A DNA stretch of 51,383 bases from Bacteroidaceae bacterium (GTDB lineage Bacteria; Bacteroidota; Bacteroidia; Bacteroidales; Bacteroidaceae). The notes beneath the pieces are model-generated. The model searched no databases and was not told where the DNA came from. It was given only the letters and a program-made list of their open reading frames with translations. The position numbers and the translations under genes are program-made. Below are positions 9,501-49,068 of the stretch, piece by piece (position 1 is the first letter of the stretch; every line of letters begins with the position of its first letter). The stretch lies in the NCBI GenBank assembly GCA_017483665.1, contig JAFUVM010000057.1:1-51383 (forward strand), in the 5' to 3' direction.

Positions 9501-12500
9501 GAGCAAAATCATCTACACATGGGCAAAGATGATTACCCGCAACGAGAGGGAGAAACTGGAAGCCACCAACCTGGTAGCCAACTACGACATAGCCGGCGCT
9601 GAGGCAGTGAATTACAGCGAGACCTTCGACAGCAACACATCGAACATGACGATGATGCACTTCCCCTTCGGCAAGCAGCCCGACTACTTCAACGCCGCAG
9701 GCAGCGGCATCGGTATGTCGGTTGCACAGTTAGCCACGGAAACTCTCGTCACCGCCATCCTGGCAGTCGTAGAATCAACGACGTACAGCTATCCGGGAAT
9801 CGGAATAGACCCGACGAAGTTTAACCAGGCAAGTGGTATGAAGTCGGAGGTGTCCTTCTCCGGAGGCCTCTTCGAATGGCTTGCCATTCCTATCATGTAC
9901 TCCCAGGTGACAGGTGCCGACGTATCGGCCAAGTCCTACAACCGTACGGAAAGCTTCACCATTGTCAACGGACCGAACAACCACCTGAACGTGGATGTCT
10001 ATCGTGTGAACAGAGCCGACAAAGACAGTAAGACGAAGGTCGACCCGAGAGACATCTATACGAACAACAACTACAACAGCTACACCAATCTGGTGAACAA
10101 GTTCCTGAACAAGGAAAGCAAGATGGAACTGAACGATGAAGGCGAGATACTGGAATTGGGCGGTTCGCGCAGCTTCGTGTTCCGCACCCGTGGCGGTGCC
10201 ACTGCCGACCCGTGGGAGGGTGAGCGCAAGACGCACTTCTACGAGGCAGGAACCGTTCTTGACGAGCGCACGCTGAAGATCGACAACCCGAAGATATGGC
10301 TCGACAAGCAGAGCGTGAGCGGTGTGTCCATCAACGACGCTGCCCGCTTCAAGGTCTTCATGGCCAACGAGAGCGAAAAGCCTGAGGCCACAGACGGCCT
10401 GACTGTCTATCAGCTGTTCACTATGGGTCCGTCGAATCCCAACGGTGCCAAGATATTCATCGACGGCGAGCCGCTCTCTTCCGGCGGTACCACCGTTACC
10501 GTCGTGCCCGGCGTAGTGACTCAGAAGACCATTGAGGTGCGTGCCGGAAACGGATTCGACTACGAGGGCCTGACCATCGGCATCATGTCGCCCAGCGATG
10601 CAGAGCATACTATGGCTACAACTTCGTTCGACGTACACTTCCTGCGCGAAGCCGGAGCGGTGACGATTGCCACGCCGGGCGACAAGTGGGTGCTGAACAC
10701 CAATGCGCAATCAGACAAGAAGCGCGGCTGGTACATTCCTGTCACCATCAACGGCTTCGACCGTCACCAGCATAACTTCGACCACATCGAGTTCCAGTAC
10801 AAGGAATCTCAGCGCGGCGATGACAGCTGGGTGAACCTTTGCTCCTACTATGCCGACTCTACGCTGATGGCGAATGCCAACGGCGTGTGTGAACTGCTGA
10901 AGCCCAACGCCAACATCGTCACCAACTTCTACGGTGAAGGCTTCGTGATGGAGAAGTCCTACGACCTGCGTGCCGTGCTCTTCTGCCGCAACGGCAATGA
11001 CTACCTGACCACGTCGTCGAAGATTGTCAGCGGCATCAAGGACACGCGTCGTCCGCAGCTGTTCGGTTCGCCCGAACCTAAGGGCGGACTGCTCTATCTG
11101 GGCAACGACATCATATTCAATTTCTCTGAAGACATCGAATACAACCACCTGAGCGCTATCACCAACTTCGAGGTAAGGGGCGAGGTGAACTCGGGCGACC
11201 TCTCCGAGACGGTGAGCATTCAGTTTAAGGACAAGGCCAGCGTGGAGAGCGAAGCCAAGCGCAACTTCAGCGGCAAGGACCTGACCATCGACCTCATGGT
11301 GAAGCCCGACTCCACAGGCCGCGAGATGCCGCTCTTCTCCCACGGCACCAACGGCCAGAAGCTGCAGCTGTGGCTGACTGCCGACTACAAGCTGAAGGCT
11401 GTTGTGGGCGACCAGACCTGCGTCAGCAACTCTGCCATTCTGAAGGGCACCTTCACGCAGGTGGCTGTCTCCATCAACCAGCAGGACAGCACGCTGACCT
11501 TCTTCAACGGTGGCGAGGAAATCGGACGCAACAAGCTGAAAGCCCTGTATAACGGTACGGGCACGCTCATCTTCGGTCGCACCAACGAGACGAACCGCAA
11601 CGAGAGCCAGTACTACGAGGGCCGCATGATGGAGGCCCGCCTCTGGTATGCCGCCATGGACGGCGGACTCATCGGCACGACCTACGGCAGCCGCCGACTG
11701 ACGGGCTACGAGAGGGACCTCGTTGATTACTACCCGATGAACGAAGGTTCGGGCAAATACGTCATCGACCATACGCAGGGAGCCAACGCCCGCCTGATGG
11801 GTGCAAGCTGGGCTATTCCGCGCGGCATGTCGCTGGGCCTGAAGAAGGAAGACAAGGGAGTGCTGCTGAAGCAGACAGCCCTGAACCGCACCAGCGACCA
11901 GGACTACACCATGATGTTCTGGTTCCGAACCGATGCCGACGGTCGCGGCACGCTGCTGAGCAACGGACGCGGCCTGAAGGAAGACGACGGAGCTGACAAC
12001 CAGTTCCACATCGGCTTCGAAGGCGACACGCTGACGTACCGCTCTAACGGCTTTGTCGCTAAGATACCGGGCAACTGGAGCGACAACAATTGGCATCACT
12101 ACGCCATGACGGTGAACCGCGGGCGCAACGTGGCTAACATCTATGTCGACAAGGAACTGCGCACGACCTTCGGTACCGACAGCTTAGGCGGCATCAGCGG
12201 CGGCTATCCGCTCATCGGTGCCAGCCGCTACATCCTCCCGGGCGCTTCGGAGCCCAAGGAAGGCGAAGCTCCGCTGAAGGGTAACATCGACGAACTGCTC
12301 TTCTTTGCACAGGCGCTGCCGCAGACGCTCATCAACACCTATGCCACCAAGAGTCCAAAGGGCGACGAGTACGGTCTGCTGACATACCTGAGCTTCGACC
12401 GCCAGGAGCGCCAGAAGAACAACGACATCGAGATGGTGCCCTACCTCTACAGCCGCAAGGTCTATCTGGATGACAAGCGCGAGGTGCGCTACGAACTCGA

Positions 12501-14475
12501 TCCGGAGACGCAGACGCCAACGAACATCCCCGTTCGCGACTACCTGTTCGTCGATACGCTCAACGTTGTCATGCCGCACATCGACCAGACGCAGGCCGCT
12601 CCCGTGGTGCCCTACGAGGAAATCCAGAATCTGAAGTTCTCCTTCATCGGGAAGGACAACCAGCTGCTGGTTGAGCTCGACGAGCCTGCCGCCAAGCTGC
12701 ACCACCGCAACATCTACGTGACGGTGCGTGACGTTGAGGACAAGAACGGCAACACGATGGCTTCGCCGCAGACAGCATGCTTCAACGTGAGCAACAACAG
12801 CCTGGAATGGCTGATGAACAGACTGGACTATACCATAAAGTATGGCAACAACGAACCGTTTGAACTGCCGTTCTTCAACAACGATGCCGTCAGCCACACC
12901 TACAAGATAGAGAACTGTCCGAAGTGGCTCACACTCGACCACTACAACGACGTGATAGCACCGCAGAATCTGAGGTCCTTCACGGTTACGGTCAGCAAGG
13001 ACCTGAACGTGGGTACGTACAACGAGATTCTGTATCTGACCGACGAGCAGGGCATCACCGAACCGTTCTACCTCAACCTGACCGTCGAGGGCGAGCAGCC
13101 CGACTGGGCAGAGAGCGTCAACGGCGACCTTCTGCGCTACTCGATGAGCATCAGCGGACAGGTCTACCTGTACGATGAGTTGGACACCGACTCCCGCGAC
13201 ATCGTGGGCGTCTTCGACGACGAGAACACCTGCCACGGCTTCGCCAACATCACCAGCTCGGAACAGACTGGCGAGACAGGTCTGTTCCTGACCGTCTACG
13301 ACAAGGAGCCCAGCGGCCGCGACCTGAACTTCCGCCTGTGGCAGTACAGCACAGGACGCGAGATTGTGCTGACGCCAAAGGATTCCATCAAGTTCGTCCA
13401 ATCGGCAGTTCTGGGCAGCGATACTCCCGTTCGCTTCGACGGCGGCGAGGCCTTCGTGCAGAACTTCAGCCTGAAGAAAGGTTGGAACTGGGTATCGTTC
13501 AACGTCAACAGCAAACAGCTGAGCGACGTGAACAAACTGCTCAGCAGCATGCGATGGAGCGACGGCGACATCCTGACCGAGCTTGACGGCAGCCTGACGC
13601 TGAACTACGAGAAAGCGAAGAACCGTTGGGTAGCATCCGGCAGCACTGAGAATGTCGTCATCTCGCCCCTGAAGTCGTATGCCATCAACGTGAAGGAAGA
13701 CTGCACCTTCCCCATTGGCGGCACCGTCATCAAGGAGAAGGCTGACCGCACCGTCACGCTGAAGCCGGGCTGGAACGGCATTGGCTACACGCCCATGACC
13801 AACCTGACCATAGAGACCGCACTGAGCGACTACTACGACCAGGCTGAGCAAGGCGACGTCATCAAGAGTCACACGGAGTTTGCCTACTTCACCAAGTCGG
13901 GCAACACCGGTCGCTGGCGCGGCAGTCTGCAGTACATGAAGCCAGGCGAGGGTTACATGATGCTCCGCAAAGGCAAGGCAGAAGCCTCGTTCGCCTATCC
14001 GTTCTACGAACTGAACAGCAACTTCCGCGAGGACTGGAGGCAGACGGCAAAGCGCAGCGCCCCGCAGTCGGTCAGCACGATGTCTGTCTCGGCAACCGTA
14101 GCCGGATTCGAGCCGGAGGAAGGCGACCGTCTGGTAGCTTACAGCAACGGCGAGACAGTGGGCGAAGCCCCTGTGCTCAGCGGTTCACCCGCTGAGACGA
14201 CGGAACCCCTCTACCTGAGCATCGCAGGCGACTCTCAGCAGAAGATATGGTTCGCCATCGAGCGCGACGGCGAGATAGTGGCTTCTTCCAGCGAGACCAT
14301 GACCTTCAATGCAAATGCCGTCATCGGCAACCCCGACGAACCGACGGTCATCAACTTCGTACACACCGACTACGAGGACGGCAAGTGGTACTCCATCAAC
14401 GGTATGCTGCTGCCAAAGAAACCGACGCAAAGAGGCCTGTATATCTTCAATGGCAAGAAGGTCGTGATTAAGTGA
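3505..14475 (+). CDS. Giant secreted modular surface protein (3656 residues)
   Basis: The N-terminus has a basic stretch and hydrophobic signal (RGRLWLLLPALFAWLLPEQAAA). Visible modules in order: fibronectin-III-like near 298-390 (APTNLKAR...VELSWTVPY); GLUG/beta-helix-like repeats near 535-990 with FDGNGHTLNV at about 578 and 809; a second fibronectin-III-like near 1080-1165; carboxypeptidase-regulatory-like beta-sandwiches near 1169-1350; a long Ala/Gly/Ser-rich middle with no recognised family; two LamG/concanavalin-like domains near 2590-2730 and 2790-2950; a BACON- or Ig-like domain near 3100-3200; GWNWVSFNV at about 3325; two copies of a module shared with the next gene (about 3232-3310 and 3540-3620). 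It ends WYSINGMLLPKK...GLYIFNGKKVVIK, like short type-IX-style C-terminal motifs. The likely role is surface adhesion or glycan binding; no catalytic motif was seen. The gene is intact and unusually long. Confidence 0.85.
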   Translation: MTNKSTNIRRGRLWLLLPALFAWLLPEQAAARVTYVEEPSNYTVALTGSNVITIFAPLCDFEGTDTWVSKGKIYFEGEGVAKTELLHFYCKDVPWDGYSNSWTEIPVVFSTAAEGYLDIKQGNSSNRFSLYKSNGEVSKQIKREGENLFSFTADWILPYNLLGKNLTLSWEIERNISGAAARANVTPKAETITVPQAAEVATPIVSLATLNPKSKGVLELPWFLGAKEISSIRYEYTDAGGVRKEVPMSNTVNSSTIQLNAVEPHRGFQIVASYYQEGAKGKYHIENVKTEAKNVALIHAPTNLKARSLGGQKGKVELSWTVPYLDDDDVAITDFFEIQRSLTGKEEDFIGIGQEIFSQTVKEGTYSFIDSTLVDAIAEGMLKNGGTLENLTYRVRRAITKDWGWGTDNNCAASTKCMLENLHLLRIADYSAKWEDERAYTVRVTWKYAEENGGVWDNRAKMKLRLIMKNRDGEVIDTTEYQVNPTERQQCYKVVSCTRPCVKYDIELFVERDQSPINHLENVQPEFFPIRTVSDWAAFRDMVAAAKGERDVNARLYADIPETDVFVGWNSDAAYRGTFDGNGHTLNVKAPNNEPLMAPFRYVGNATIMNLHTAGTILTNERYISGIAGEVKAGSTVTIENCRSSVTINSTFKGFGYGSTYKGETDNGGLISRLGNNAAVVIRNCKFDGSFEGEESRNNGGFIGYCQDKSSATIDNCLFAPDHIGTRIAGCETWVRGSDFTLTLKNSYATTEYGEPKTIDIDGKTFMVLRNNDDWGKFLDALKTNSATNAIMDADFGIVTAADNFSGIFDGNGHTLNVNINGGSTESIALFKNGRDFTIKNLHLTGSVSGANHVAGLVGISNVSNDDNRNHIDNCRVSATINCSNYIFGGFVGRGNRVDIHNCLFDGQLVCPSADPWAGVFMGFVDGGIAMGVENCLSNATFNNINHRALNISGNPDGPPYGWGNGYSQWVKNNWSYGDLEGASKITGESSETMVKYLGSENWQLVDGKVVPKMRVLQVIKTRPIGEIEGYFTDGWKKENNVLVPVTTTTPEPIMADINTNPDLPDFYHASNGKIEKTLITQTRQSSVLLTWDTDGNPIDYFTVLRRVKGETAESAWKEIATNLDQMSYEDTSVSPLETYEYKVRATNDCEGVTFTDTEVKVGECKHTGRVEGYVRYNDGTSAAGVEVAIKLGNETVTSTFTDDSGYFVADELSYNGKTTVTYVVTPVAANSKVQFDEPFRVNVTFNAKSNNETLREFVINSGKLFSGFVMYDGTSIPVKGAHFKVNGRYLYNRRGDLLETEYDGSFSFRVNPGRDTIQVVMDGHTFVDDGYYKSKAGHDFTSDVAQTYFYDATKVKLTGRIVGGDDQGKLPLGNNLSRNNLGDKLKMVLTLEGDNTSWLVYDNLNPNRTEREATYRHPRGNGHKTTVKTTRKRIEVSPDSITGEYELMLPPVRWKVQQVYCEGYSTLFQEGQVSEVIDLTDCLASKDTTYSGTYKDADTITVAKPKLTYNAIYNRIYHSPKEVTYKQLGYDDFDYLGDKTYTAADLLGNKTDVPLAYKKDKDSRQAAYTFGYPVFSLERKYYIQVQVAESYPYNNNKSSGKIDYVKVGGGKATMYNGMKAVSALEYKKEADLDSLGRAIFELTVDQTPQLLTRESALKRVNFSVMQDGTFYEAEPLYGYVLNMFATGAGKEILTDGQPLLFDILRDPPGGSSSNSLAKGTTLNYSYSMDMTLMAGLLLNFTLGSKMQSFAGTVAAPAGVGSTMGLINSSDAADMLVSDLIFTMAGNKGYSYTMNIGHTISTSSDPSMVGADADLYIGAVQNVVVMPMSSIRAISDEMYKNITANQGQGLPDSPTSELAKQIQYGSLVHIAEGTDAEGKKFHLVRDQTIGYGPKLQSQFMYSQKQILKQIIPQLAKEILDMVYVGTEADAKKLANRTQFPVYLSLREPNDSLFGVVNTKVIPDHIYNTTIKKAEEGVNYLVVLPDGKKETDFNDEIAAKSKIIYTWAKMITRNEREKLEATNLVANYDIAGAEAVNYSETFDSNTSNMTMMHFPFGKQPDYFNAAGSGIGMSVAQLATETLVTAILAVVESTTYSYPGIGIDPTKFNQASGMKSEVSFSGGLFEWLAIPIMYSQVTGADVSAKSYNRTESFTIVNGPNNHLNVDVYRVNRADKDSKTKVDPRDIYTNNNYNSYTNLVNKFLNKESKMELNDEGEILELGGSRSFVFRTRGGATADPWEGERKTHFYEAGTVLDERTLKIDNPKIWLDKQSVSGVSINDAARFKVFMANESEKPEATDGLTVYQLFTMGPSNPNGAKIFIDGEPLSSGGTTVTVVPGVVTQKTIEVRAGNGFDYEGLTIGIMSPSDAEHTMATTSFDVHFLREAGAVTIATPGDKWVLNTNAQSDKKRGWYIPVTINGFDRHQHNFDHIEFQYKESQRGDDSWVNLCSYYADSTLMANANGVCELLKPNANIVTNFYGEGFVMEKSYDLRAVLFCRNGNDYLTTSSKIVSGIKDTRRPQLFGSPEPKGGLLYLGNDIIFNFSEDIEYNHLSAITNFEVRGEVNSGDLSETVSIQFKDKASVESEAKRNFSGKDLTIDLMVKPDSTGREMPLFSHGTNGQKLQLWLTADYKLKAVVGDQTCVSNSAILKGTFTQVAVSINQQDSTLTFFNGGEEIGRNKLKALYNGTGTLIFGRTNETNRNESQYYEGRMMEARLWYAAMDGGLIGTTYGSRRLTGYERDLVDYYPMNEGSGKYVIDHTQGANARLMGASWAIPRGMSLGLKKEDKGVLLKQTALNRTSDQDYTMMFWFRTDADGRGTLLSNGRGLKEDDGADNQFHIGFEGDTLTYRSNGFVAKIPGNWSDNNWHHYAMTVNRGRNVANIYVDKELRTTFGTDSLGGISGGYPLIGASRYILPGASEPKEGEAPLKGNIDELLFFAQALPQTLINTYATKSPKGDEYGLLTYLSFDRQERQKNNDIEMVPYLYSRKVYLDDKREVRYELDPETQTPTNIPVRDYLFVDTLNVVMPHIDQTQAAPVVPYEEIQNLKFSFIGKDNQLLVELDEPAAKLHHRNIYVTVRDVEDKNGNTMASPQTACFNVSNNSLEWLMNRLDYTIKYGNNEPFELPFFNNDAVSHTYKIENCPKWLTLDHYNDVIAPQNLRSFTVTVSKDLNVGTYNEILYLTDEQGITEPFYLNLTVEGEQPDWAESVNGDLLRYSMSISGQVYLYDELDTDSRDIVGVFDDENTCHGFANITSSEQTGETGLFLTVYDKEPSGRDLNFRLWQYSTGREIVLTPKDSIKFVQSAVLGSDTPVRFDGGEAFVQNFSLKKGWNWVSFNVNSKQLSDVNKLLSSMRWSDGDILTELDGSLTLNYEKAKNRWVASGSTENVVISPLKSYAINVKEDCTFPIGGTVIKEKADRTVTLKPGWNGIGYTPMTNLTIETALSDYYDQAEQGDVIKSHTEFAYFTKSGNTGRWRGSLQYMKPGEGYMMLRKGKAEASFAYPFYELNSNFREDWRQTAKRSAPQSVSTMSVSATVAGFEPEEGDRLVAYSNGETVGEAPVLSGSPAETTEPLYLSIAGDSQQKIWFAIERDGEIVASSSETMTFNANAVIGNPDEPTVINFVHTDYEDGKWYSINGMLLPKKPTQRGLYIFNGKKVVIK

Positions 14476-14630
14476 GAGAAGAACCAGAGCTTGCTCGGGT
14501 TCTTCCGAACGGGAACGAGCTCGAGCAAAGCTCAAGGTCGTGATTAAGTGAGAGAAGAACCAGAGCTTGCTCGGGTTCTTCCGAACGGGAACGAGCTCGA
14601 GCAAAGCTCAAGGTCGTGATTAAGTAAGTC
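14457..14630 (+). repeat. 76-bp tandem duplication of the giant gene's 3' end
   Basis: The last five codons of the giant gene (GTCGTGATTAAGTGA) begin a 76-bp unit present twice and followed by a third partial copy ending AAGTAAG. Unit starts are at 14461, 14537 and 14613. Each unit can fold: GTTCTTCCGAAC is a small hairpin nested between GAGCTTGCTCG and CGAGCAAAGCTC, resembling a terminator arm, but no T-run follows. Confidence 0.9.
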
Positions 14631-21544: not shown

Positions 21545-21640
21545 AAGCTGATGGTTGAATTTTGACACGCCCTCTTTTCGTTGCAAGCGGTGGGGGAGGG
21601 GAAAGCGGAAGGCTCTTCCTGTTGAAGCGCCGTGCGGTGT

Positions 21641-34218: not shown

Positions 34219-35454
34219 TCAGAAGAGGTGCATTACGCCGCTTGCGGGCCTTCCCGCGAGGAGTTCCTGCCGCATGTAGTCCATGTAGGGGGCCACGTGC
34301 TGGAAGAAGATGCGGTAGCCGGCACAGAGGTAGTTGAGGCCCGGTTCGCCGTCGGCCGTATGGAGGAAGCGCAGGCGGGGACATTCGCCGTGACAGGCCT
34401 TGAGCCACTCGCATTGGCGGCACTGGCGGGGAAGGGCTTCCTTCTTCAGTCGGGAGAAGCGGTTCTGCTTTGTGCCATAGAGCATCTGCGGCAGTCCGTG
34501 CGTGCGTATGTTACCTAATTTATATTGCGGGAAGACGAAGTGGTCGCAGCTGTAGACATCGCCGTTGTGCTCCATGACGGCTGCATGACCGCACTCCTCG
34601 GCGTAGACGCAGACACCGGGTTCCACGCCCATCCATCCGGCCAGGGTGGCATCGAAGAGCTGCACGAAGACTTCGCCCACATCGTGGCGCACCCATTCGT
34701 CGAAGATAGTGCACATGAAGTGTCCCCATTCCTCGGGACGGATGCTGAAGGGTGCGATGGGGCAGTCTTCGTCGAAGAGCTGGGCAAGATGGCGGCCGTC
34801 GCTGTGCTGCTTGATGCGTTCCACAACGGGACTTATCTGCAGGAACTTGCAATGCAGCTCGTCGCGGAAGAAGTGATAGAAGGCGAGCGGGTCCTGGGCG
34901 TTGAAGTGATTGGCTGTTGCCATCGCGTTCCATTCGACCCCGTACTCATTCAGCAGACGTATACCGTCCATCACCCTTTGCCAAGTGCCCCTGCCCTGGA
35001 CATCGTGTCGGTAGGCGTCGTGCTGCTCCTTTGTGCCGTCGATGCTGATGCCCACCAGCCAGCCTTCGTCGTGGAGGAACCTGCACCATTCGGGCGTGAG
35101 CAGAAGGCCGTTGGTCTGTATGCTGTTGCTGATGCGTTTGCCCCGGCCGTAGTATTGTTGCAGCCGCACAGCCTGCTTGTAGAAGCTGAGCGGCCTGAGC
35201 ATGGGCTCGCCTCCGTGCCAGGTGAAGAGCACGTCGGGCGTCTGTTGCAGCTGGATGTAGTCGCGGATGTATTGCTCCCAGACCCCCCCTAACTTCCCCT
35301 TAAAGGTGGAGGACTCCCCTCTCCCCGGAGAGGGGGCGGAGGTGAGGCTTTGCTTCTCCAGGTAGTAGCAATATTCGCAGCGCAGGTTGCACTTCGGTCC
35401 TGCCGGCTTTGCCATCACATAAAGCGGACGGGCGAAAGGATAGGCGGTACTCAT
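34219..35454 (-). CDS. SPASM radical SAM enzyme (anaerobic sulfatase-maturase-like)
   Basis: The 411-residue protein shows the radical SAM cluster CNLRCEYC at residues 22-29. The SPASM region near the end supplies auxiliary cluster cysteines (CVYAEECGH, CDHF, CRQC, CHGEC, CAGY). Such enzymes (anSME) turn a Cys or Ser of a sulfatase into formylglycine. No sulfatase is encoded in the window. The start at 35454 overlaps the permease stop by 4 bases (ATGA) and is thus strongly supported. Residues about 36-58 (SLTSAPSPGRGESSTFKGK region) look like a translated palindromic repeat inserted in frame at 35281-35349, between the cluster loop and the next helix. The enzyme could instead modify a peptide. 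Confidence 0.85.
   Translation of the reverse strand: MSTAYPFARPLYVMAKPAGPKCNLRCEYCYYLEKQSLTSAPSPGRGESSTFKGKLGGVWEQYIRDYIQLQQTPDVLFTWHGGEPMLRPLSFYKQAVRLQQYYGRGKRISNSIQTNGLLLTPEWCRFLHDEGWLVGISIDGTKEQHDAYRHDVQGRGTWQRVMDGIRLLNEYGVEWNAMATANHFNAQDPLAFYHFFRDELHCKFLQISPVVERIKQHSDGRHLAQLFDEDCPIAPFSIRPEEWGHFMCTIFDEWVRHDVGEVFVQLFDATLAGWMGVEPGVCVYAEECGHAAVMEHNGDVYSCDHFVFPQYKLGNIRTHGLPQMLYGTKQNRFSRLKKEALPRQCRQCEWLKACHGECPRLRFLHTADGEPGLNYLCAGYRIFFQHVAPYMDYMRQELLAGRPASGVMHLF
35281..35349. repeat. In-frame palindrome-family insert in the radical SAM gene
   Basis: GACCCCCCCTAACTTCCCCT followed by TAAAGGTGGAG makes one arm of the same family seen at 42260-42380 and 47147-47277. The other side holds CCCCTCTCC/GGAGAGGGG. 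The whole piece is translated without a stop and adds a Pro/Ser/Gly-rich loop near residues 36-58. Confidence 0.7.
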
Positions 35455-36677
35455 AGTATCTTCTTTGCGAGGTAGCGAACCGGGTACCATATTGCCAGCC
35501 AGCCGACGGCAAGGACGGTGACGAGGATGAGCAGGATGTCCGTGAGGTAGACGCTTACGGGATAGGTCTCTACGATGAAGCTGCCTTCGCTGTCGCCCAT
35601 GCTGACCAGCCCGTATTCCTGCTGAACCCAGCAGAGCACGGCGCCAAGGACGAGACCGAGCAGGGCACCGGCCAGGCTGATGATGTGCCCTTCGAGGCGG
35701 AAGATGGTGCAGATTTGGGAGTCGTTTGCCCCGAGGCTTCGAAGCGTCTGGATGTCCTGCCGCTTGTCTATCATGAGCATCGAGAGCGAGCCGATGATGT
35801 TGAAGCAGGCCACCAGCAGAATGAAGGAAAGGAAAAGATAGGAGATGAGCTTCTCGATGCGCATCACACGGAAGACATCGTCCTGCTGCTCATAGCGGTC
35901 CTCCACCTTGAAGCGCTCGCCCAGCTGTGCCTGCAGCTGCTGCTTGGCCTTCTCTACATCGGTGCCGGGCTTGAGCTTCAGTTCTATAGCCGACACTTTG
36001 CCCTGCCGGTCGAAGAGACGTTGGGCAAACTGCAGACTGGTGAGGATGTAGTTCCTGTCGTATTTTGCCTGTCGCACCATGAAGACCACTCCGGGACTTT
36101 GCAGCTCGTCGTGGTTGAAGGAGGACAGCGGATTGCCGATGTTCACACGTTCGCCTTGTTTGGGCGCATAGACCTGCAAGGGGTTCTCGAAGGAAGCGGA
36201 GAGCCCCAGCTCCTGTGCCAGCTGTATGCCCAGAACGCCGTACTCCAGCACGTCGGCATGGAGGCAGAAGGAGCCGTCGCCATAGAGGATGTCTTCGATG
36301 TGGCCTTGCTTTGTGATGTTGTCGGCCACACCCTTGATGGTCACTACATGCTGCCGTCCCTCCTGCACCACGAGAGCCTGCCCTTCGAGCACAGGGGTAA
36401 AGACTTCCACCATGCCTTCCTGTTTGAGCTGCAGCAAGGCGGTGTCCTTCAGGCTGACGGCCTGTCCGGTGAGGGGCGAGACGCGCAGTTCGGGGTCGAA
36501 GGCCGTGAAGAGGTCGGCCACAAGGTCCTGGAAGCCGTTGAAGACGCTCAGCGTAACCACCATCGCCATCGTTGCCACGGCAACGCCGAGCACCGAGATG
36601 CCACTGATGATGTTGATGGCATGGTGGCTCTTCTTGGCGAAGAGGTAGCGTCGGGCTATGAAGAGTTCATAATTCAT
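35451..36677 (-). CDS. LolC/LolE-like ABC transporter permease
   Basis: The 408-residue inner-membrane protein has the lipoprotein-release permease layout: an N-terminal helix after FIARRYLFAKKSHHAINIIS, the motif ISVLGVAVATMAMVVTLSVF, a long periplasmic MacB-like domain, and three C-terminal helices with SYLFLSFILLVACFNIIGSL and the FtsX motif MLMIDKRQDIQTLRSLGAND. It should pull lipoproteins out of the inner membrane together with a LolD ATPase not in this window. It lies downstream of rbfA, an order I know from other Bacteroidales, and its stop overlaps the radical SAM start. Confidence 0.9.
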   Translation of the reverse strand: MNYELFIARRYLFAKKSHHAINIISGISVLGVAVATMAMVVTLSVFNGFQDLVADLFTAFDPELRVSPLTGQAVSLKDTALLQLKQEGMVEVFTPVLEGQALVVQEGRQHVVTIKGVADNITKQGHIEDILYGDGSFCLHADVLEYGVLGIQLAQELGLSASFENPLQVYAPKQGERVNIGNPLSSFNHDELQSPGVVFMVRQAKYDRNYILTSLQFAQRLFDRQGKVSAIELKLKPGTDVEKAKQQLQAQLGERFKVEDRYEQQDDVFRVMRIEKLISYLFLSFILLVACFNIIGSLSMLMIDKRQDIQTLRSLGANDSQICTIFRLEGHIISLAGALLGLVLGAVLCWVQQEYGLVSMGDSEGSFIVETYPVSVYLTDILLILVTVLAVGWLAIWYPVRYLAKKIL

Positions 36678-38741: not shown

Positions 38742-40529
38742 ATGATGATAAATAATATGAGAAAAAGCAACTACGACAAGCAACCCAGTACGCACATCGA
38801 AGGCTCGATGGTATGTGGCTGGGACAACATTGTCCGCACACTCAGCGAGGCTTGGTCTGACGAACCTGTGTGGGCCATCGACCTCTATCCGGGCACTTAC
38901 GAAGAGGACTTCATCAAGGCCTTCGGGCAGACAGGACGCAAGATTATTGACACGCGCACGCTGATGCGGCCGGAAGAAGAAATCCGTCAGCTCACGGAAC
39001 GCTTCATGACCGACGACGTGCTCTTCGGATATATGTCGAACATAAGGCTGGAAGAATACTTTGACAATTCAAAATTAACAAATTCAAAATTCAAAATTGA
39101 AGAGCCCACTGCCATCATCGGCACAGGGGCTGCCTTCGCCGCAAAGAAATGGTCAATGGTCAATGGTCAATGTTCAATGGTCAATGGTCAATGTTCAATG
39201 TTCAATGGTCAATGTTCAATCGTCTACGCCGACATGGCCCGCTGGGAGATACAGCAGCGCTTCCGCCGGCACGAGGTGAAGGCCCTTGGCATAGACAACC
39301 ACGAGGACAGCCCTTCGGTGCAGTACAAGCGGGGCTACTTCAACGACTGGAACATCATCGACCGCTACAAGGACGAGCTCATGCAGAGCGGTTGCATTCA
39401 GTTCTGGATTGATTCGAACCGTCGCGACGAGCCAAAGATGATTACCGACACACAGGTGCGGCAGGGCCTGGAGCGCACGGTGCACAGTCCTTTCCGGGTC
39501 GTCCCCTTCTTCGACCCTGCGCCCTGGGGCGGCCAATGGATGAAGGAGGTTTGTGATTTGCCTCGCGAGGAAGTGAACTACGGCTGGTGCTTCGACTGTG
39601 TGCCCGAGGAGAACAGCCTTTACCTGGAGGCCGAGGGTGTGCTCTTCGAACTGCCTTCGCAGGATGTCGTCCTTGCCCACACCCGCGAACTGCTCGGCCA
39701 GCAGGTGTGGCATCGCTTCGGCAAGAGCTTCCCTATCCGTTTCGACTTCCTCGACACGATGCAGGGCGGCAACCTCAGCTTGCAGGTACACCCCACCAAT
39801 GAGTTCGCCCAAAAGGAGTTCGGTCTGCCTTACACACAGGACGAGAGCTACTATCTGCTTGATGCGGGCGAGGATGCGGTGGTCTATCTCGGCTTGAAGG
39901 AAGGCATCGACAAGGTGCAGATGATAGAAGACCTGCGTGCTGCCCAGCGGGGCGAGATACTGTTCGACGCAGAGAAGTACGTCAACAAGCTGCCTGCCAA
40001 GAAGCACGACCACTACCTCATCCCGGCAGGCACCATTCATTGCTCCGGGCACGACAGCATGGTGCTCGAGATAAGTTCTACGCCCAGCATCTTCACCTTC
40101 AAGCTGTGGGACTGGGCACGCCTCGGCTTGGACGGCAAACCAAGGCCCATCAACGTGGAGCGCGGCAAGTTCGTCATCCAATGGGAGCGCACCACGCCGT
40201 TCGTCAAGCGCGAGATAGCCAACCACTTCGAGGTGCTCCACGAGGAGGACGGCATCAAGGAGGAACGCACCGGCCTGCATCCCAACGAGTTCATCGAGAC
40301 GCGCAGGCACACCTTCAGCCGTCCTGTAGAGCACGACACCAAGGGCGGCGTGAACGTCCTCAACCTTGTGGACGGCGAGGCAGCCCTCGTAGAGAGTCCC
40401 GAAGGCAAATTCGCTCCCTTCGAGGTGCACTATGCCGAGACGTTCATCATCCCAGCCTGCATAGGCCGATACACCATTAAGCCCCTCGGCGGCGAGTGCA
40501 TGACCATCAAGGCCTCGGTGCGGACCTGA
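38742..40529 (+). CDS. manA: Class I mannose-6-phosphate isomerase with extra N-terminal domain
   Basis: The 595-residue protein interconverts mannose-6-phosphate and fructose-6-phosphate. The catalytic part (about residues 245-595) shows DPAPWGGQWMKEV, the zinc motif NLSLQVHPTNEFAQ, and HYLIPAGTIHCSG. The N-terminal ~240 residues form a separate domain (MVCGWDNIVRTLSEAW; IIGTGAAF; VYADMARWEIQQRF), which I know from long Bacteroidales isomerases. Residues about 106-118 and 135-160 are translated AT-rich and TCAATGG tandem repeats, inserted where relatives would go straight from IIGTGAA to YADMARWE. The gene heads an operon with a ROK kinase and MFS permease. Confidence 0.9.
   Translation: MMINNMRKSNYDKQPSTHIEGSMVCGWDNIVRTLSEAWSDEPVWAIDLYPGTYEEDFIKAFGQTGRKIIDTRTLMRPEEEIRQLTERFMTDDVLFGYMSNIRLEEYFDNSKLTNSKFKIEEPTAIIGTGAAFAAKKWSMVNGQCSMVNGQCSMFNGQCSIVYADMARWEIQQRFRRHEVKALGIDNHEDSPSVQYKRGYFNDWNIIDRYKDELMQSGCIQFWIDSNRRDEPKMITDTQVRQGLERTVHSPFRVVPFFDPAPWGGQWMKEVCDLPREEVNYGWCFDCVPEENSLYLEAEGVLFELPSQDVVLAHTRELLGQQVWHRFGKSFPIRFDFLDTMQGGNLSLQVHPTNEFAQKEFGLPYTQDESYYLLDAGEDAVVYLGLKEGIDKVQMIEDLRAAQRGEILFDAEKYVNKLPAKKHDHYLIPAGTIHCSGHDSMVLEISSTPSIFTFKLWDWARLGLDGKPRPINVERGKFVIQWERTTPFVKREIANHFEVLHEEDGIKEERTGLHPNEFIETRRHTFSRPVEHDTKGGVNVLNLVDGEAALVESPEGKFAPFEVHYAETFIIPACIGRYTIKPLGGECMTIKASVRT
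39059..39220. repeat. In-frame tandem repeats inside manA (7-bp TCAATGG/TCAATGT, ~10 copies)
   Basis: At 39151-39220 ten units of GGTCAAT or GTTCAAT lie head to tail, encoding MVNGQCSMVNGQC-like text. Just upstream (39063-39100) are AATTCAAAATTAACAAATTC words like those in the spacer at 30480. Both are translated without a stop. A unit of 7 means that gain or loss of one copy shifts the frame. Confidence 0.9.
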
Positions 40530-40599: not shown

Positions 40600-41694
40600 A
40601 TGAGCAAAGACAAAAAAATCGTGTTGACGCTTGATGCAGGTGGAACAAACTTCGTGTTCTCTGCCATTTGCGACAACCAGGAGATCGTAGAACCCGTGCG
40701 CCTGAAGGCCGTAACCACCGATACGGAAGGCTGTCTGGCAACCCTTGTACAGGGTTTCACTACCGTCAAGGAGAAGCTCGGAACGGAGCCTGTCGCCATC
40801 AGCTTCGCTTTCCCCGGACCGGCCGACTATGCCCGCGGCGTGATAGGCGACCTGCCCAACTTCCCGTCCTTCCGCGGCGGCGTGGCGCTTGGCCCGTATC
40901 TGGAGAGCGTCTTCAAGATTCCCGTGTACGTGAACAACGACGGCAATCTGTTTGCCTACGGCGAGGCTTTGGCCGGTGCCCTGCCGCGTGTCAACAAGGC
41001 ACTCGAGGAGAGCGGCTGCCAGCGGCGCTACAAGAACCTCATCGGCATCACCCTCGGCACGGGCTTCGGCTGTGGCGTCGTGATAGACAAGGTCTTGCTG
41101 ACGGGCGACAACGGCTGCGGCGGCGACGTCTGGTGCATGCGCAACGGCATGTATCCCTTCGTCATAGCCGAGGAAAGCGTCAGCATCCGTGCCGTGCGCC
41201 GCGTGTATGCCGAGTTGTCGCGCGAAGAGATAGGCGACCTTACGCCCAAGGACATCGGCGAGATAGCCAACGGTATCCGTCCCGGCAACGCGAGGGCAGC
41301 CCAGGAAAGCTTCCGCCAGCTGGGGCAGGTCACGGCTGCCGCTTTGGTGAATGTGCTGAACATCGTGGACGGCATCGTCGTCATCGGCGGCGGATTGTCC
41401 TATAACTCCAAGTGGATTCTGCCCGGCATGATGGAGGAGTTCAACCGTCCCGTCGGAACCTTCACCGGCAGTCTGCTCCCCACGTTGCAGTCGGAAGTCT
41501 ACAACTTCGAGGACCCCGAGCAGCGCAAGGCCTTCCTCGTGGACAAGGATGTCTACGTCGACGTGCCCCATACGGACCAGAAGGTGCTCTACTGCGCACA
41601 GCGCAAGGTGGCCGTCCTCGTGTCCGAGCTGGGAGCCAGCAAAGCCATCAACCTGGGTGCATACAACTTTGCCCTGAATGAATTGAACAAGTGA
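40600..41694 (+). CDS. ROK-family sugar kinase (probable mannose/fructose or glucose kinase)
   Basis: The 364-residue protein phosphorylates a hexose with ATP in the cytosol. Family marks are the phosphate loop LTLDAGGTNFVF (residues 8-19), ISFAFPGPADYARG, VYVNNDGNLFAYGE (the conserved catalytic Asp), and LIGITLGTGFGCGVV. The usual ROK zinc signature C-x-C-G-x2-G-C-x-E is absent; the place reads NGCGGDVWCMRNGM. Placement between manA and a permease suggests mannose (or fructose) phosphorylation feeding the isomerase. Glucokinase activity is also possible, as for some Bacteroides members. Confidence 0.9.
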   Translation: MSKDKKIVLTLDAGGTNFVFSAICDNQEIVEPVRLKAVTTDTEGCLATLVQGFTTVKEKLGTEPVAISFAFPGPADYARGVIGDLPNFPSFRGGVALGPYLESVFKIPVYVNNDGNLFAYGEALAGALPRVNKALEESGCQRRYKNLIGITLGTGFGCGVVIDKVLLTGDNGCGGDVWCMRNGMYPFVIAEESVSIRAVRRVYAELSREEIGDLTPKDIGEIANGIRPGNARAAQESFRQLGQVTAAALVNVLNIVDGIVVIGGGLSYNSKWILPGMMEEFNRPVGTFTGSLLPTLQSEVYNFEDPEQRKAFLVDKDVYVDVPHTDQKVLYCAQRKVAVLVSELGASKAINLGAYNFALNELNK

Positions 41695-41708
41695 GGGAGG
41701 GCTACACT

Positions 41709-42932
41709 ATGAATTACAAGAAACTTCTCCCCGTCATGCTGTGCTTCTTCGCCATGGGATTCGTCGACATGGTGGGCATAGCCAGCAACTACGTGAAGGC
41801 CGACCTCGACCTTTCCGACTCGATGGCCAACACGCTGCCCTCGCTCGTGTTCCTCTGGTTCCTCATCTTCAGCATCCCCACCAGCTTGCTCATGAACAAG
41901 ATAGGCCGCAAGAACACGGTTCTGCTCAGCCTCGTCCTGACGCTCGCAGCGATGGTAGTGCCTGTCTTTACCCTCGACTTCACCATGCTCCTGCTCTCCT
42001 TCTCCCTCCTGGGAATAGGCAACGCCATCATGCAGACCTCGCTCAATCCGCTCGTGGACAGCGTGATGAAGGGCGGCGCCTCGGCCAGTACCCTGACCTT
42101 CGGGCAGTTCATCAAGAGCATCGCCTCGTTCCTGGCTCCCATCATCGCCTCTTGGGGAGCCACCACCAATGCCTTCGGCTTCGGTTGGCGTGCCATCTAT
42201 CCCATCTATCTGTGCATCGGCATCCTGACCACCCTGCTGCTCTTCGGCACAAAGATTGAAGACCCGAAGACCCTCTCTAACTCCCCCTTAAAGGGGGAGA
42301 AGCAAAGCTCGACGAAAGTCAACACTGCGCAGGAAGTCTCTCCTTTAAGGGGAGATTTAGAGGGGTCCTTTTTCGGGTCTTTTGCCCTGCTGCGCGACCC
42401 CTTCATCCTGCTCTGTTTCCTGGCAATCATCTGTCATGTCGGCATCGATGTGGGCACCAGTGTCACAGCCCCGAAGATTCTGATGGAACGTGCCCAAATG
42501 AGTCTCAACGAGGCAGCCATCATCGGCACCATCTACTTCGTGGCAAAGGCGGCAGGCAGCTTCAGCGGCAGTTTCATCATGGGCTACGTCAAGGACTGGA
42601 CCTTCCTGCTCCTGAGCGTCCTGATGATGGTGGTGTCTGCCTTTGGCCTCGTCTTCGGCGAGAGCGCCACGGTCATCTACGTCAGCGTGGCCCTCATGGG
42701 CTTCGGCAACGGCAATCCCTTCAGCATCGTCTTTGCCCGCGCCCTGCAAGCTGTGCCCGACAAGAAGAACGAAGTCTCCGGCCTGCTCATCATGGGCATC
42801 TTCGGCGGCACCGTGTTCCCGCTCCTCATGGGCTTTGCCAGCGACGCCTTCGGTCAGACGGGCGCCGTCGCAGTCATGTCCCTGGGCATCATTTATCTGT
42901 TGGCTTTCTACCTGCAGGGCAGGAAGGCTTAG
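41709..42932 (+). CDS. MFS sugar permease (FucP/GluP-like)
   Basis: The 407-residue protein starts MNYKKLLPVMLCFFAMGFVD, with GGGAGGG before the ATG; an in-frame GTG at 41691, overlapping the kinase stop, is less likely. Twelve-helix MFS layout is visible, with MGFVDMVGIASNYVKADL and the loop NKIGRKNTVLLSL. The FucP/GluP-like family imports hexoses by proton symport. Residues about 184-222 (ending at GSFALLRDPF) are a translated palindromic repeat inserted in frame in the central cytoplasmic loop, between KIEDPK and GSFALLRDP. The loop is the most tolerant position. It completes the isomerase-kinase-permease operon. Confidence 0.88.
   Translation: MNYKKLLPVMLCFFAMGFVDMVGIASNYVKADLDLSDSMANTLPSLVFLWFLIFSIPTSLLMNKIGRKNTVLLSLVLTLAAMVVPVFTLDFTMLLLSFSLLGIGNAIMQTSLNPLVDSVMKGGASASTLTFGQFIKSIASFLAPIIASWGATTNAFGFGWRAIYPIYLCIGILTTLLLFGTKIEDPKTLSNSPLKGEKQSSTKVNTAQEVSPLRGDLEGSFFGSFALLRDPFILLCFLAIICHVGIDVGTSVTAPKILMERAQMSLNEAAIIGTIYFVAKAAGSFSGSFIMGYVKDWTFLLLSVLMMVVSAFGLVFGESATVIYVSVALMGFGNGNPFSIVFARALQAVPDKKNEVSGLLIMGIFGGTVFPLLMGFASDAFGQTGAVAVMSLGIIYLLAFYLQGRKA
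42260..42380. repeat. In-frame palindromic element in the MFS gene
   Basis: Outer arms AGACCCGAA (42260-42268) and TTCGGGTCT (42372-42380) flank inner arms GACCCTCTCTAACTCCCCCT... (42269-42300) and ...GGAGATTTAGAGGGGTC (42337-42367). The 36-base centre holds GCTCGACGAAAGTCAAC (42307-42323), as in the array at 2934-3110. The segment 42269-42367 is 99 bases, exactly 33 codons. Confidence 0.85.
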
Positions 42933-46219: not shown

Positions 46220-47758
46220 ATGACGATAAGTGACGATTTAGGGACTTTAATTAAGGGGAATTTCGCCCACAAACCGACAAAAGAGCAAGAAAATGCTATT
46301 TCTTTGCTCTCTGAATTCCTGCTCTCACGAAAGAGCGATTCGCTGTTCCTCCTGAAAGGGTATGCAGGCACGGGCAAGACGTCGCTGCTGGCCGCCCTGG
46401 TGCGCACCATGCAACAGCTGCAGCAGCGCGTCATGCTCCTGGCGCCGACGGGACGTGCCGCCAAGGTGCTCTCGTCGTTTGCCGGAGCGCCGGCCTACAC
46501 CATACATCGCAAGATATACCGGCAGAAGTCGCTCGTCGACATGGACAACTTCCAGAACGACGTGAACCTGCACAAGGACACACTCTTCATCGTGGACGAG
46601 GCCTCGATGATAGGCGGCGAGGGCGACGGCAGCACTATCTTCGGCTCGGGGCGCTTGCTCGACGACCTGATGCACTACGTCTACTCGTGCGAAGGGTGCC
46701 GGCTCCTGCTGGTGGGCGACACGGCTCAGCTTCCGCCTGTGGGCGAGGAAGTGGGTCCTGCCCTGGACCGCCTGGCCCTCGAGGGCTATGGCATGGAGGT
46801 GACGGAGTATTGTCTGACGGAAGTCGTGCGCCAGCTCGGGGAGTCGGGCATCCTGTGGAACGCTACGATGCTGCGCCGCCTCATTCAGGACGACGAGATG
46901 TACGCTTTCCCCAAACTCCGGACAAAGGGTTTCCCCGACGTATGCGTCGTGCCGGGTAACGAGCTCATCGATGCCCTGGACGACAGTTACCGACGCTATG
47001 GGACCGACGGAACCATTGTCGTGACGCGCAGCAACAAGCGTGCGGGTATCTTCAACGGCGGCATCCGCGCCCGCATCCTCGACTACGAGGATGAGCTCTC
47101 CAGCGGCGACCTCGTCATGGTGGCAAAGAATAATTACTATTGGATAGACCCCCCAACCCCCTTTAGGGGGAGCTCCAATTCGGCAAAGGGCGGTCAGGAA
47201 CTTCTGAAAGAGGATGAGGAAAGTCCCAATTCAGCAGGGGGCGGCCAAGAACTCCCCCTAAAGGGGGATGGGGGGTCTTCCTTCATTGCCAACGGCGACG
47301 TGGCGGTTGTCCGACGCATCCGCAACGAGCGCAGCTTCTATGGCTTCCGCTTTGCCGACGCCACGTTGCGCTTTCCCGACTACAACCAGACGGAGCTGGA
47401 CGTCACGGTCCTGCTCGACACCCTGCAAAGCGAAGCGCCCGCCCTGACACGACAGCAGCAGCAGGCGCTCTTCACGGCTGTCTGGGAGGACTATCCCGAG
47501 CTGACCAACAAACGCGACCGCATGAAGCGTCTGCGCCAGGACCCCTACTACAATGCCCTGCAGATCAAGTATGCCTATGCCGTCACCTGCCACAAGGCGC
47601 AGGGCGGACAATGGGAGCACGTCTACATCGACCAGGGCTACATCACCGAGGAGATGCTTTCGCCCGACTACTTCCGCTGGCTCTATACGGCCCTCACCCG
47701 TGCCACAGAGAAGGTTTTCCTCATCAATTGGCCCGAAAGTGCCCTGAGCGATGACTGA
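46220..47758 (+). CDS. RecD-like/UvrD-superfamily DNA helicase
   Basis: The 512-residue SF1B helicase shows all motifs: KPTKEQENAI (Q-motif), Walker A GYAGTGKTS near 48, Walker B FIVDEASM near 120, GDTAQLPPVG near 168, and late TCHKAQGGQWEHV and RWLYTALTRA. It resembles RecD2/Dda-type 5'-3' helicases that act in repair, without RecB/C partners. Residues about 310-353 (WIDPPTPF...GGSSF) are a translated palindromic element. Relatives would run from NNYYW to FIANGD directly. The insert is in a loop between motifs, so activity may survive. Confidence 0.9.
   Translation: MTISDDLGTLIKGNFAHKPTKEQENAISLLSEFLLSRKSDSLFLLKGYAGTGKTSLLAALVRTMQQLQQRVMLLAPTGRAAKVLSSFAGAPAYTIHRKIYRQKSLVDMDNFQNDVNLHKDTLFIVDEASMIGGEGDGSTIFGSGRLLDDLMHYVYSCEGCRLLLVGDTAQLPPVGEEVGPALDRLALEGYGMEVTEYCLTEVVRQLGESGILWNATMLRRLIQDDEMYAFPKLRTKGFPDVCVVPGNELIDALDDSYRRYGTDGTIVVTRSNKRAGIFNGGIRARILDYEDELSSGDLVMVAKNNYYWIDPPTPFRGSSNSAKGGQELLKEDEESPNSAGGGQELPLKGDGGSSFIANGDVAVVRRIRNERSFYGFRFADATLRFPDYNQTELDVTVLLDTLQSEAPALTRQQQQALFTAVWEDYPELTNKRDRMKRLRQDPYYNALQIKYAYAVTCHKAQGGQWEHVYIDQGYITEEMLSPDYFRWLYTALTRATEKVFLINWPESALSDD
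47147..47277. repeat. In-frame palindromic element in the helicase gene
   Basis: Arms of 26 bp, GACCCCCCAACCCCCTTTAG then GGGGAG (47147-47172) and its complement (47252-47277), with one mismatch, enclose an imperfect direct repeat (CCAATTC(G/A)GCA(A/G)(A/G)GGGCGG..AGGAACT). No stop occurs in the helicase frame. Confidence 0.9.
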
Positions 47759-47798: not shown

Positions 47799-47910
47799 AA
47801 AACACAGCGTGCTCTTCCGAAATAAGCGCAAGGCTCTTCCGAAATAAGCGCGAGGCTCTTCCTGAATAAGCGCGAGGCTCTTCCGGAATAAGCGCCGTGC
47901 TCTTCCGGAC
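47799..47910 (+). repeat. 22-bp tandem array GCTCTTCCGAAATAAGCGCGAG, ~4.5 copies
   Basis: Units start at 47811, 47833, 47855, 47877 and 47899 and differ at a few bases. A single similar block (GGCTCTTCCTGTTGAAGCGCC) is at about 21619-21639, next to the cupin gene. There is no spacer as in CRISPR. The rest of 47759-48047 holds no gene. Confidence 0.85.
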
Positions 47911-48047
47911 GGGGGCAAACGCCGTTGTCCCTGTCAAGGAAGCCCGTGTCCCGTCGCCTGACGCACCGTTTATTAACATTTTTTGTGTTCTCGCACCAAT
48001 AAGAGTAAAAATAATCCTAAAAATGTCGCTGTCTTATTAATTTTTCT

Positions 48048-48084: not shown

Positions 48085-49068
48085 ATGAACATTCTTGTCA
48101 CAGGAGCCAACGGACAGTTGGGCAACGAAATGCGCCTCGTAGCGAAAGGTTCCGCGGACAATTATATCTTCACCGACGTCAGTCAGCAGGAGGGGGCGGA
48201 GACCGTCTTCCTGGACATCACCGACCCCGAGGCTGTCCGTGCTATGGTGCAAGGCTGCAACGTGCAGGCCATCGTGAACTGTGCCGCCTGGACTAATGTC
48301 GACGCGGCAGAGGCTCCCGAGAACTACCCCTTGGTCGAGAAGCTGAACGCCACAGCCCCCGGCATCCTGGCCCAGGCCATGAAGGAAGTGGGCGGCTGGC
48401 TCATTCACATCTCCACCGACTACGTCTTCGGCAAAGAACCCTACAACACGCCCTGCCAGCCCGACCAGCAAGGCACGCCCACCGGCATCTACGGCAGGAC
48501 AAAGAAAATGGGAGAGGAGCGAATCCAAAAAGTATTTAATGAAAAATTAAAAATTAAAAGTGAAAAATTAATAGCAAGCGAGGCAGAAGGTTCAATGTTC
48601 AATGTTCAATGTTCAATGTTCAATGGCGGCTTCATCATCATCCGCACGGCGTGGCTCTACAGCGAGTTCGGCAAGAACTTCCTGGGGACGATGCTCAACC
48701 TCACTGCCACCAAGCCGCAGCTCCGCGTTGTCTTCGACCAATGCGGCACCCCGACGTACGCCCTCGACCTCGCCAAAGCTATTCAGGTCATCCTCCGGAA
48801 GCCCGTGCAGGGCATCTATCACTACTCCAACGAAGGCGTCTGCTCGTGGTACGACTTCACGCAGATGATAGCCCGCATCGCCGGACACAAGGACTGCGAC
48901 GTGCAGCCCTGCCGTTCCTCGGAGTTCCCCAGTCCCGTCGTGCGCCCCGCCTACTCCGTCCTCGACAAACGCAGCATTCGTGAGACGTTCGGCATCAAGG
49001 TGCCGTATTGGGTCGACTCACTGGAGGAGTGCATCGAAAACATTAAGAAAAAGGAGGTTAGTAGTTAG
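48085..49068 (+). CDS. rfbD: dTDP-4-dehydrorhamnose reductase (in-frame repeat insert)
   Basis: The 327-residue enzyme makes dTDP-L-rhamnose with NAD(P)H in the cytoplasm. Signs: Rossmann start MNILVTGANGQLGNEM, VDAAEAPENYPL, HISTDYVFG and YGRTKKMGEE (the YxxxK active-site pair), and FGKNFLGTMLNL. Residues about 148-181 are a foreign stretch (KIKSEKLIASEAEGSMFNVQ, then CSMFNG) made from AT-rich words and five GTTCAAT units. Relatives pass from the YxxxK helix directly to FIIIRTAWLY. The last codons and stop are in the GGTTAGGGG repeat. Confidence 0.92.
   Translation: MNILVTGANGQLGNEMRLVAKGSADNYIFTDVSQQEGAETVFLDITDPEAVRAMVQGCNVQAIVNCAAWTNVDAAEAPENYPLVEKLNATAPGILAQAMKEVGGWLIHISTDYVFGKEPYNTPCQPDQQGTPTGIYGRTKKMGEERIQKVFNEKLKIKSEKLIASEAEGSMFNVQCSMFNGGFIIIRTAWLYSEFGKNFLGTMLNLTATKPQLRVVFDQCGTPTYALDLAKAIQVILRKPVQGIYHYSNEGVCSWYDFTQMIARIAGHKDCDVQPCRSSEFPSPVVRPAYSVLDKRSIRETFGIKVPYWVDSLEECIENIKKKEVSS
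48590..48624 (+). repeat. Perfect five-copy GTTCAAT array inside rfbD
   Basis: Five exact 7-bp units in a row at 48590-48624 follow AAAATTAAAAATTAAAAGTG words at 48543-48570. Both are translated. The unit is the same word family as in manA. A seven-base unit shifts the frame if copy number changes. Confidence 0.9.

Follow-up and report, generated by a model that had tools for sequence, protein, structure and literature searches.

The gene for a RecD-like helicase in a Bacteroidaceae bacterium most probably carries, in frame and in a tolerant loop of the protein, a copy of a non-autonomous palindromic repeat that is dispersed in the genome; we put the probability of this reading at about 0.8. 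The unit of the repeat is a 26-nt REP-like arm, made up of a foot and a short hairpin, which occurs singly or as an inverted pair. Palindromes read in frame are best known from Rickettsia and Wolbachia, whose reduced genomes offer an easy excuse for them. Here, they are common in gut bacteria; dozens of species are available for comparison, and one loop has been repeatedly invaded by unlike repeats, which makes it testable how non-coding DNA enters genes without breaking them. The helicase loop is a good place to study how repeat DNA invades proteins, and the question at stake is whether insertion and selection account for this or whether the process itself has a preference for frame-compatible coding sites.

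The window referred to below is the whole stretch of DNA that was analysed, 51,383 nucleotides of contig JAFUVM010000057.1. The source genome (G000), that of a rumen bacterium related to Prevotella, is a draft of 3.06 Mb, 78% complete, and the compared genomes are likewise incomplete drafts; its close relatives are draft assemblies from rumen and gut, labelled Prevotellaceae, Bacteroidaceae or Bacteroidales bacterium. The other G numbers denote related genomes, and L numbers denote fetched loci.

The palindrome of the helicase gene

The helicase gene was matched in all 61 genomes searched (the source genome and 60 of the genus), and the solved structures returned by a PDB search are remote relatives only. 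Its frame runs without a stop over all 512 codons, the insert included (Table 1). The first-pass annotation had described 26-nt arms with one mismatch, lying in frame; the arms are indeed complementary at 25 of 26 positions, and a repeat search extends them to 30 nt at 93%. The same annotation had placed the insert at residues 310-353, which is right within one residue, and its inner direct repeat of about 28 bases was recovered as well, with 23 of 28 positions identical at an offset of 51. The helicase of G036 carries a related insert, shorter by 18 residues, in which the spacer is present once and the duplication is absent.

Table 1. Positions of the helicase gene, the parts of its insert and the other in-frame palindromes of the window
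Feature	Position	Strand	Description	Basis or status
RecD-like helicase gene	46220..47758	+	512 aa, AAA_30 and UvrD_C_2	open frame, Pfam
Loop insert	47144..47281	+	46 residues (309-354), flanked by KNNYYW and FIANGD	relatives' loops
Left arm, family A	47147..47172	+	foot GACCCCCCAA, hairpin core, then AG; reads DPPTPFRGS	
Spacer	47173..47251	+	imperfect inner duplication (47175-47202 and 47226-47253)	
Right arm	47252..47277	+	inverted copy, one mismatch; reads LPLKGDGGS	
Family D palindrome	42267..42367, ends approximate	+	in MFS permease gene 41691-42932 (KTLSNSPLKGE ... SPLRGDLEGS)	in frame
Hybrid palindrome	35279..35350, ends approximate	-	D-like arm and CCTCTCC-type arm in radical SAM/SPASM gene 34219-35490	in frame

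A chance origin of the palindrome was ruled out by two kinds of shuffles. The core CCCCCTTTAGGGGGA (up to 3 mismatches) has 12 matches in the window against 1.0 expected, some of them the same place counted on both strands as the core is near-palindromic, and none of 100 shuffles reached 12. The insert stretch folds at -74 kcal/mol (z -5.45), and none of 200 shuffles was as low. A known structured RNA was also rejected, with no Rfam match at E <= 1 for positions 46900-47500.

Dispersal and anatomy of family A

The absence of further copies of the arm in the genome had been named in advance as evidence against repeated insertion. Further copies are present: a search with the helicase insert (E up to 10) gave 109 match rows in the source genome, with 40 of 61 candidates scored. 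The insert of G036 as query gave 61 rows in the source genome, 24-52 rows in five relatives (G053, G036, G020, G027, G005) and 0-15 rows in the other 11 of the 17 genomes.

The family A site set comprises 43 clusters of the CCCCCTTTAGGGGGA core (up to 1 mismatch), taken from 37 fetched stretches and the window. The term 'genic' is used here for an open frame that runs through the element, not for an annotated gene. A long stop-to-stop frame reads through 20 of the 43 clusters, and 18 of 41 classifiable sites are genic when the frame must have a start codon and 30 codons to each side of the element; two places (L061 and L067:861) failed this stricter rule and were excluded, so that the comparison is between 18 genic and 23 non-genic sites. 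At 17 of the 18 genic sites the protein is identified by Pfam. The hosts include ValRS, HSP90, Rel/SpoT, a ketoacyl synthase, an AMP-ligase, a histidine-kinase-type ATPase domain, glycoside hydrolases and a TonB receptor.

The usual arm of family A consists of the foot GACCCCCCNN, the hairpin CCCCCTTTAGGGGG and then AG; arms are found singly or as inverted pairs, and 52 of 58 begin with GACC. This AG form leaves two of the three reading frames open in either direction. A second form, GACCCCCTAA followed by the hairpin and AA, has stops in two of the three frames, and it is split sharply between the two kinds of site. It makes up 0 of 25 genic arms and 20 of 33 non-genic arms (p=4.5e-7, the arm count omitting an overlapping second match at L068); counted by site, it occurs at 0 of 18 genic and 16 of 23 non-genic sites (p=2.6e-6). 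Under the looser stop-to-stop rule, none of 20 AA arms lies in frame, as against 30 of 37 AG arms. At four places (L076, L079, L084, L088), the foot appears to supply the stop codon of the preceding frame.

Carriage by known viruses was considered and set aside, as exact matches to one family A and one family B arm pattern numbered zero in viral contigs.

Further palindrome families and their placement in genes

The permease and radical SAM inserts of the window had been assigned to the same family as the helicase insert. This assignment does not hold: both are absent among the 109 rows matched by the helicase query (E up to 10), and they represent instead a second family (D) and a hybrid of two arm types. 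The architecture is common to all three inserts, and a single family for them was rejected, their sequence families being unlike. There are at least three palindrome families in the source genome. The broader claim that several unrelated genes carry palindromes in frame was supported for families A, B and D.

Family B was searched with the insert found in the G053 loop, which spans about 100 bp including the spacer; this gave 39 rows in the source genome and 62 in G053. Of 18 source-genome sites taken from these matches, 15 lie in long stop-to-stop frames, with a Pfam match at 12 of the 15 (the frames at L102, L105 and L112 have none). Its hosts include MnmA, a DEAD-box helicase, MutS2 and FeoB; at L114 the element stands well before the Pfam domain and may be upstream of the true start. 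A rule that called 19 of 19 family B sites genic was dropped, as it merged distinct sites, scored the core alone and took in known non-genic places.

For family D, the permease insert as query gave 44 rows in the source genome, and 16 of 17 further sites lie in frames, of which the frame at L274 has no Pfam match and looks spurious. Since these samples of B (15/18) and D (16/17) had been drawn with genic queries, a context-blind census of the D core (up to 1 mismatch) was made, in which 40 rows were merged to 25 sites. By a rule requiring a start codon and 150 codons, 21 of the 25 are genic; a Pfam match is present at 18 of the 21 and absent at one, 19 having been scanned. In the fetched stretches, 82% of random positions (3293/4000) are genic, a share like that of the D sites, and a random insertion keeps the frame in 15% (517/3352); an earlier run of this baseline gave 86% and 17%. 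If all frame-keeping and all intergenic insertions survive, the expected genic share is at most 42%, and insertion with frame selection is therefore insufficient for D (p=1.8e-5), with the caveats that the baseline stretches were chosen around elements and that intergenic copies may decay faster or fall in subfamilies missed by the core pattern. Family A is without such a genic excess.

Turnover of the helicase loop among relatives

It had also been proposed that conservation of the insert across the helicase family would speak against insertion. Among 42 more distant relatives (L188-L227, L229, L231), the loop that separates KNNYYW from FIANGD is 8 residues long in 34 and 15 residues long in 3, one row being misread and four not read. 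In the clade around the window it has 16-59 residues (L009-L018, L031-L035, L154-L176, L178, L186) and is of varied types. The insert as a conserved feature of the helicase was thus rejected.

Typing of the loops was based on patterns, and types A, D and E are similar in their C-run and G-run cores. Family A is present in the source genome and G036, family B in G053, L164 and L175, a CCTCTCC type (C) in L013, L016, L017, L157 and L158, family D in L014, and the CTCCCCCTTTGGGGGAG type (E) in L160 and L178. GGGGCAA heptads in inverted arrangement fill the loops of L012, L015, L154, L163, L166 and L186, AATTCAA heptads those of L159 and L165, and L018 is mixed. Ten species have a 16-residue TEREQ-type loop without a repeat, or a near copy of it. 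Long loops (25-55 residues) without a recognised repeat make up 15 of 67 helicase rows, 12 of them from the same genus; the loop can therefore grow without palindromic elements. An inverted repeat that 60 shuffles (preserving letter counts only) failed to reach was found in 14 loops. Twelve of these bear repeats, with some species represented twice, and the remaining two are short loops scoring 7 and 8; no inverted arrangement is seen in the AATTCAA loops.

On a helicase tree built without the loop, 18 type changes are needed to account for the 10 types among 36 rows. With shuffled labels the mean rises to 23.3 changes, and none of 200 shuffles needed as few as 18, so that the loop types are partly inherited. 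The tree covers 36 of the 67 rows, with 11 duplicates and the more distant rows left out, and 12 of its 33 inner branches are starred and 11 open.

G053 is the sister of the source genome on this tree. The family A loops of the source genome and G036 have in common a stretch of 49 nt, spacer and arm, at 96%; among the matches listed, other rows match that spacer at 79% or less. The loops of G053 and L164 are identical at 138 of 141 nt, letters outside the element included, as against 30/50 and 31/50 for the third codon positions next to it. Among the heptad loops of L154, L166 and L186, identity is 92-95%, compared with 80-85% in the flanks. In other pairs (E, N and C types), identity in the loop exceeds that in the flanks slightly or not at all. 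As the gap between loop and flank identity is seen in some pairs and not in others, these comparisons support an apparent exchange of loops between species by short tracts for some pairs only.

The same elements in other conserved genes

In ValRS, the source genome and G053 have the same family A element. It is absent from the 14 other loci; their loops are variable and, judged by eye, contain repeats of other kinds, among them an unrelated palindrome, GTATGTTGCGTTGCCAACGCAACATAC, in G027 (L133). In L059, a second ValRS insert with tandem repeats (TIDHSSLTIDHSSL) lies at residues ~640-685, where the alignment to the Thermus structure breaks off.

In Rel, a family A arm is found in the source genome, in G020 and, degenerate, in G005, and heptads in G053 and G013; nine more relatives have the ancestral or another sequence (three of the 17 loci lacked anchors). 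The length of the loop is nearly constant (33-37 residues). The ValRS and Rel loops show a turnover similar to that of the helicase loop. In HtpG of the source genome, two arms stand in place of host codons, flanking the host stretch DKLxxVFRSQA that is common to the relatives. The two arms are absent from the 13 relatives read (three of 17 loci were not read); twelve have the ancestral length and pattern, and in G053 an unrelated insert lies at the right-hand of the two sites. The GDE gene of the source genome likewise carries a family A arm, which is found in none of the 14 relatives read (one locus was not read).

For MnmA, the DEAD-box helicase and ValRS, the alignment to PDB homologues stops at the insert, which the homologues lack; that of Rel runs through the insert, with a poor stretch there. 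Synonymous changes in the arms number 15/41 in family A (0.30 expected), 14/46 in B (0.28) and 10/54 in D (0.26). Synonymous change being neither enriched nor depleted, no peptide-level selection was detected on the arms of A, B or D, and it was ruled out as an explanation. From this divergence, the translated peptide of the arms is probably just tolerated.

Mode of spread and alternative explanations

The preferred explanation combines a palindromic element, a tolerant loop, spread in the manner of patches and some exchange of loops, and as a whole it is held almost as firmly as the reading of the helicase feature itself. The element would have entered a tolerant loop of a housekeeping helicase, where it is presumably read as a Pro/Gly/Ser-rich linker. 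Copies may have been pasted in as short single-strand patches by illegitimate repair resembling template switching, and mutants that lost the frame or were hit in the protein core would have been purged. Some loops would then have moved between species by short-tract recombination on conserved flanking codons. Patch-like repair or template switching is favoured over clean transposition because of the inverted arrangement, the near length-neutral replacement of codons and the heptads in the same loops; this pasting mechanism is put forward only tentatively. Short-patch illegitimate recombination is the basis of the idea, and a literature search for it returned no paper. On a brief look at the flanks of family A clusters, no target-site duplication was noticed, and the search for a parental element, which covered PF01797, did not link a mobilising enzyme to the repeat. 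Replacement is seen in two genes, Rel and HtpG, and could be insertion followed by trimming.

The genic excess of family D is larger than simple insertion with purifying selection predicts, and it counts against this preferred explanation too. Gene-dwelling subfamilies may instead spread mainly from gene to gene in a frame-compatible way, overwriting short stretches of tolerant loops, with cassettes traded between species via very short tracts. We regard this stronger version as unlikely; if it were true, palindromes resident in coding sequence would continually reshape protein loops throughout a whole genus.

The first-pass annotation had suggested repeated insertion of one family with selection for the open frame. 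Dispersal and placement in frame were borne out; the single family was not, and the D excess and the replacement of codons do not fit. Random insertion of one family followed by selection for the open frame alone would explain that genic copies are free of stops and that the stop-richer AA subfamily is absent from genes, and family A by itself agrees with it. Against this stand the share of D sites in genes, the presence of several families rather than one, and the arms of Rel and HtpG, which lie in place of host codons and speak against simple insertion. As a full account it is improbable. Still less probable is that the helicase loop is a hypervariable region under selection, for example as a target of phage inhibitors, with the repeats serving as raw material only. 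The frequent changes of loop type on the tree, the loops that look exchanged and the long loops without recognised repeats would all suit such selection; against it stand the similar turnover of the ValRS and Rel loops and the synonymous changes in the arms, which are neither too many nor too few.

REPINs are non-autonomous and extragenic, and consist of two inverted REPs with a spacer. The arms described here could accordingly be REPs and the inverted pairs REPINs, moved in trans by an IS200-like tyrosine transposase. The anatomy of foot and hairpin, in singles and inverted pairs, is REP-like, and some intergenic arms at gene ends seem to supply a stop codon, as REPs can (PMC3733652). The source genome also has a Y1-transposase gene (E 5.6e-6; L093:6949-7485). 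That gene, however, is flanked by a different palindrome of the GTCGGATTGCAAATCCGAC type and not by family A, and was rejected as the mover. A cognate RAYT flanked by the family A repeat was not found in the source genome, and G036, G020 and G005, which have 44, 39 and 24 family A rows, gave no Y1_Tnp match at E <= 1e-3, these genomes being 62-89% complete. Neither GTAG nor CGTC stands at either end of the 58 family A arms; GTAG or its complement lies inside 3 of them and CGTC or its complement inside 6, and in family B GTAG occurs only in the middle of the hairpin. The replaced host codons are not expected under such transposition either. The elements thus resemble REPINs in their inverted arm pair with a spacer, single arms being present as well, and differ in that they are often genic and that no cognate RAYT was found; an origin by REPIN/RAYT transposition is rather doubtful. 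The RAYT-like gene of L093, with the GTCGGATTGCAAATCCGAC and GGCGGATTTGCAATCCGCC palindromes around it (6700-7800), marks a separate REP-like family.

Comparison with known systems

The elements found here are the same kind of phenomenon as the RPEs, the WPEs and the intragenic REPs, now in Bacteroidota. Among the literature matches listed, in a search with most subscription journals outside its scope, there was no description of such elements in this phylum. RPEs of Rickettsia and WPEs of Wolbachia are palindromes of ~100-150 bp that lie in frame in unrelated genes, with solvent-exposed inserts, and orthologues in which RPEs of unlike groups lie close to one site are already in print (PMC3767692, PMC10969869). 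The likeness is in architecture and placement, that is, dispersed multi-copy palindromes in frame in several unrelated conserved genes; membership in those families by sequence is not claimed. The present elements differ in their phylum, in their hosts being rumen and gut bacteria, and in a unit arm of 26 nt that can stand alone. Further differences are the tandem heptads in the same loops, the apparent exchange between species and the split into genic and intergenic subfamilies.

For intragenic GTAG/CGTC REPs of Opitutus terrae, Thauera, R. conorii and other bacteria, the published report describes singles and dimers in genes for repair proteins, RNA helicases and tRNA synthetases, and different REPs at about the same recB site in two Xanthomonas; GTAG REPs are also said there to supply stop codons (PMC3733652). 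Family A does not have their end tetranucleotide (0/58 arms). According to the same report, most REPs are intergenic (PMC3733652), whereas the sampled sites of families B and D are mostly genic. In nematomorph mitochondria, inverted repeats lie within translated genes, and their arms encode conserved protein regions (PMC6649704); here, by contrast, the arms encode variable loops and are dispersed.

Other repeats in the window

Directly past the helicase gene, positions 47811-47920 hold 22-nt tandem repeats (GCTCTTCCGAAATAAGCGCGAG), to which a copy at 21603 is related. The frame of an RmlD gene (dTDP-4-dehydrorhamnose reductase-like, 48085-49068) contains AT-rich and TTCAATG heptad repeats at 48530-48630, a further class of repeat within a gene. 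A TCAATGG/TCAATGT heptad array occupies 39134-39236 in a 595-aa frame (38742-40529) without a Pfam match. An array of about a dozen 8-nt units (AGTTGACA/AGTTGACG) lies at 2802-2905, and a perfect 76-nt tandem duplication at 14458-14609 starts at the end of a 3656-aa frame (3505-14475).
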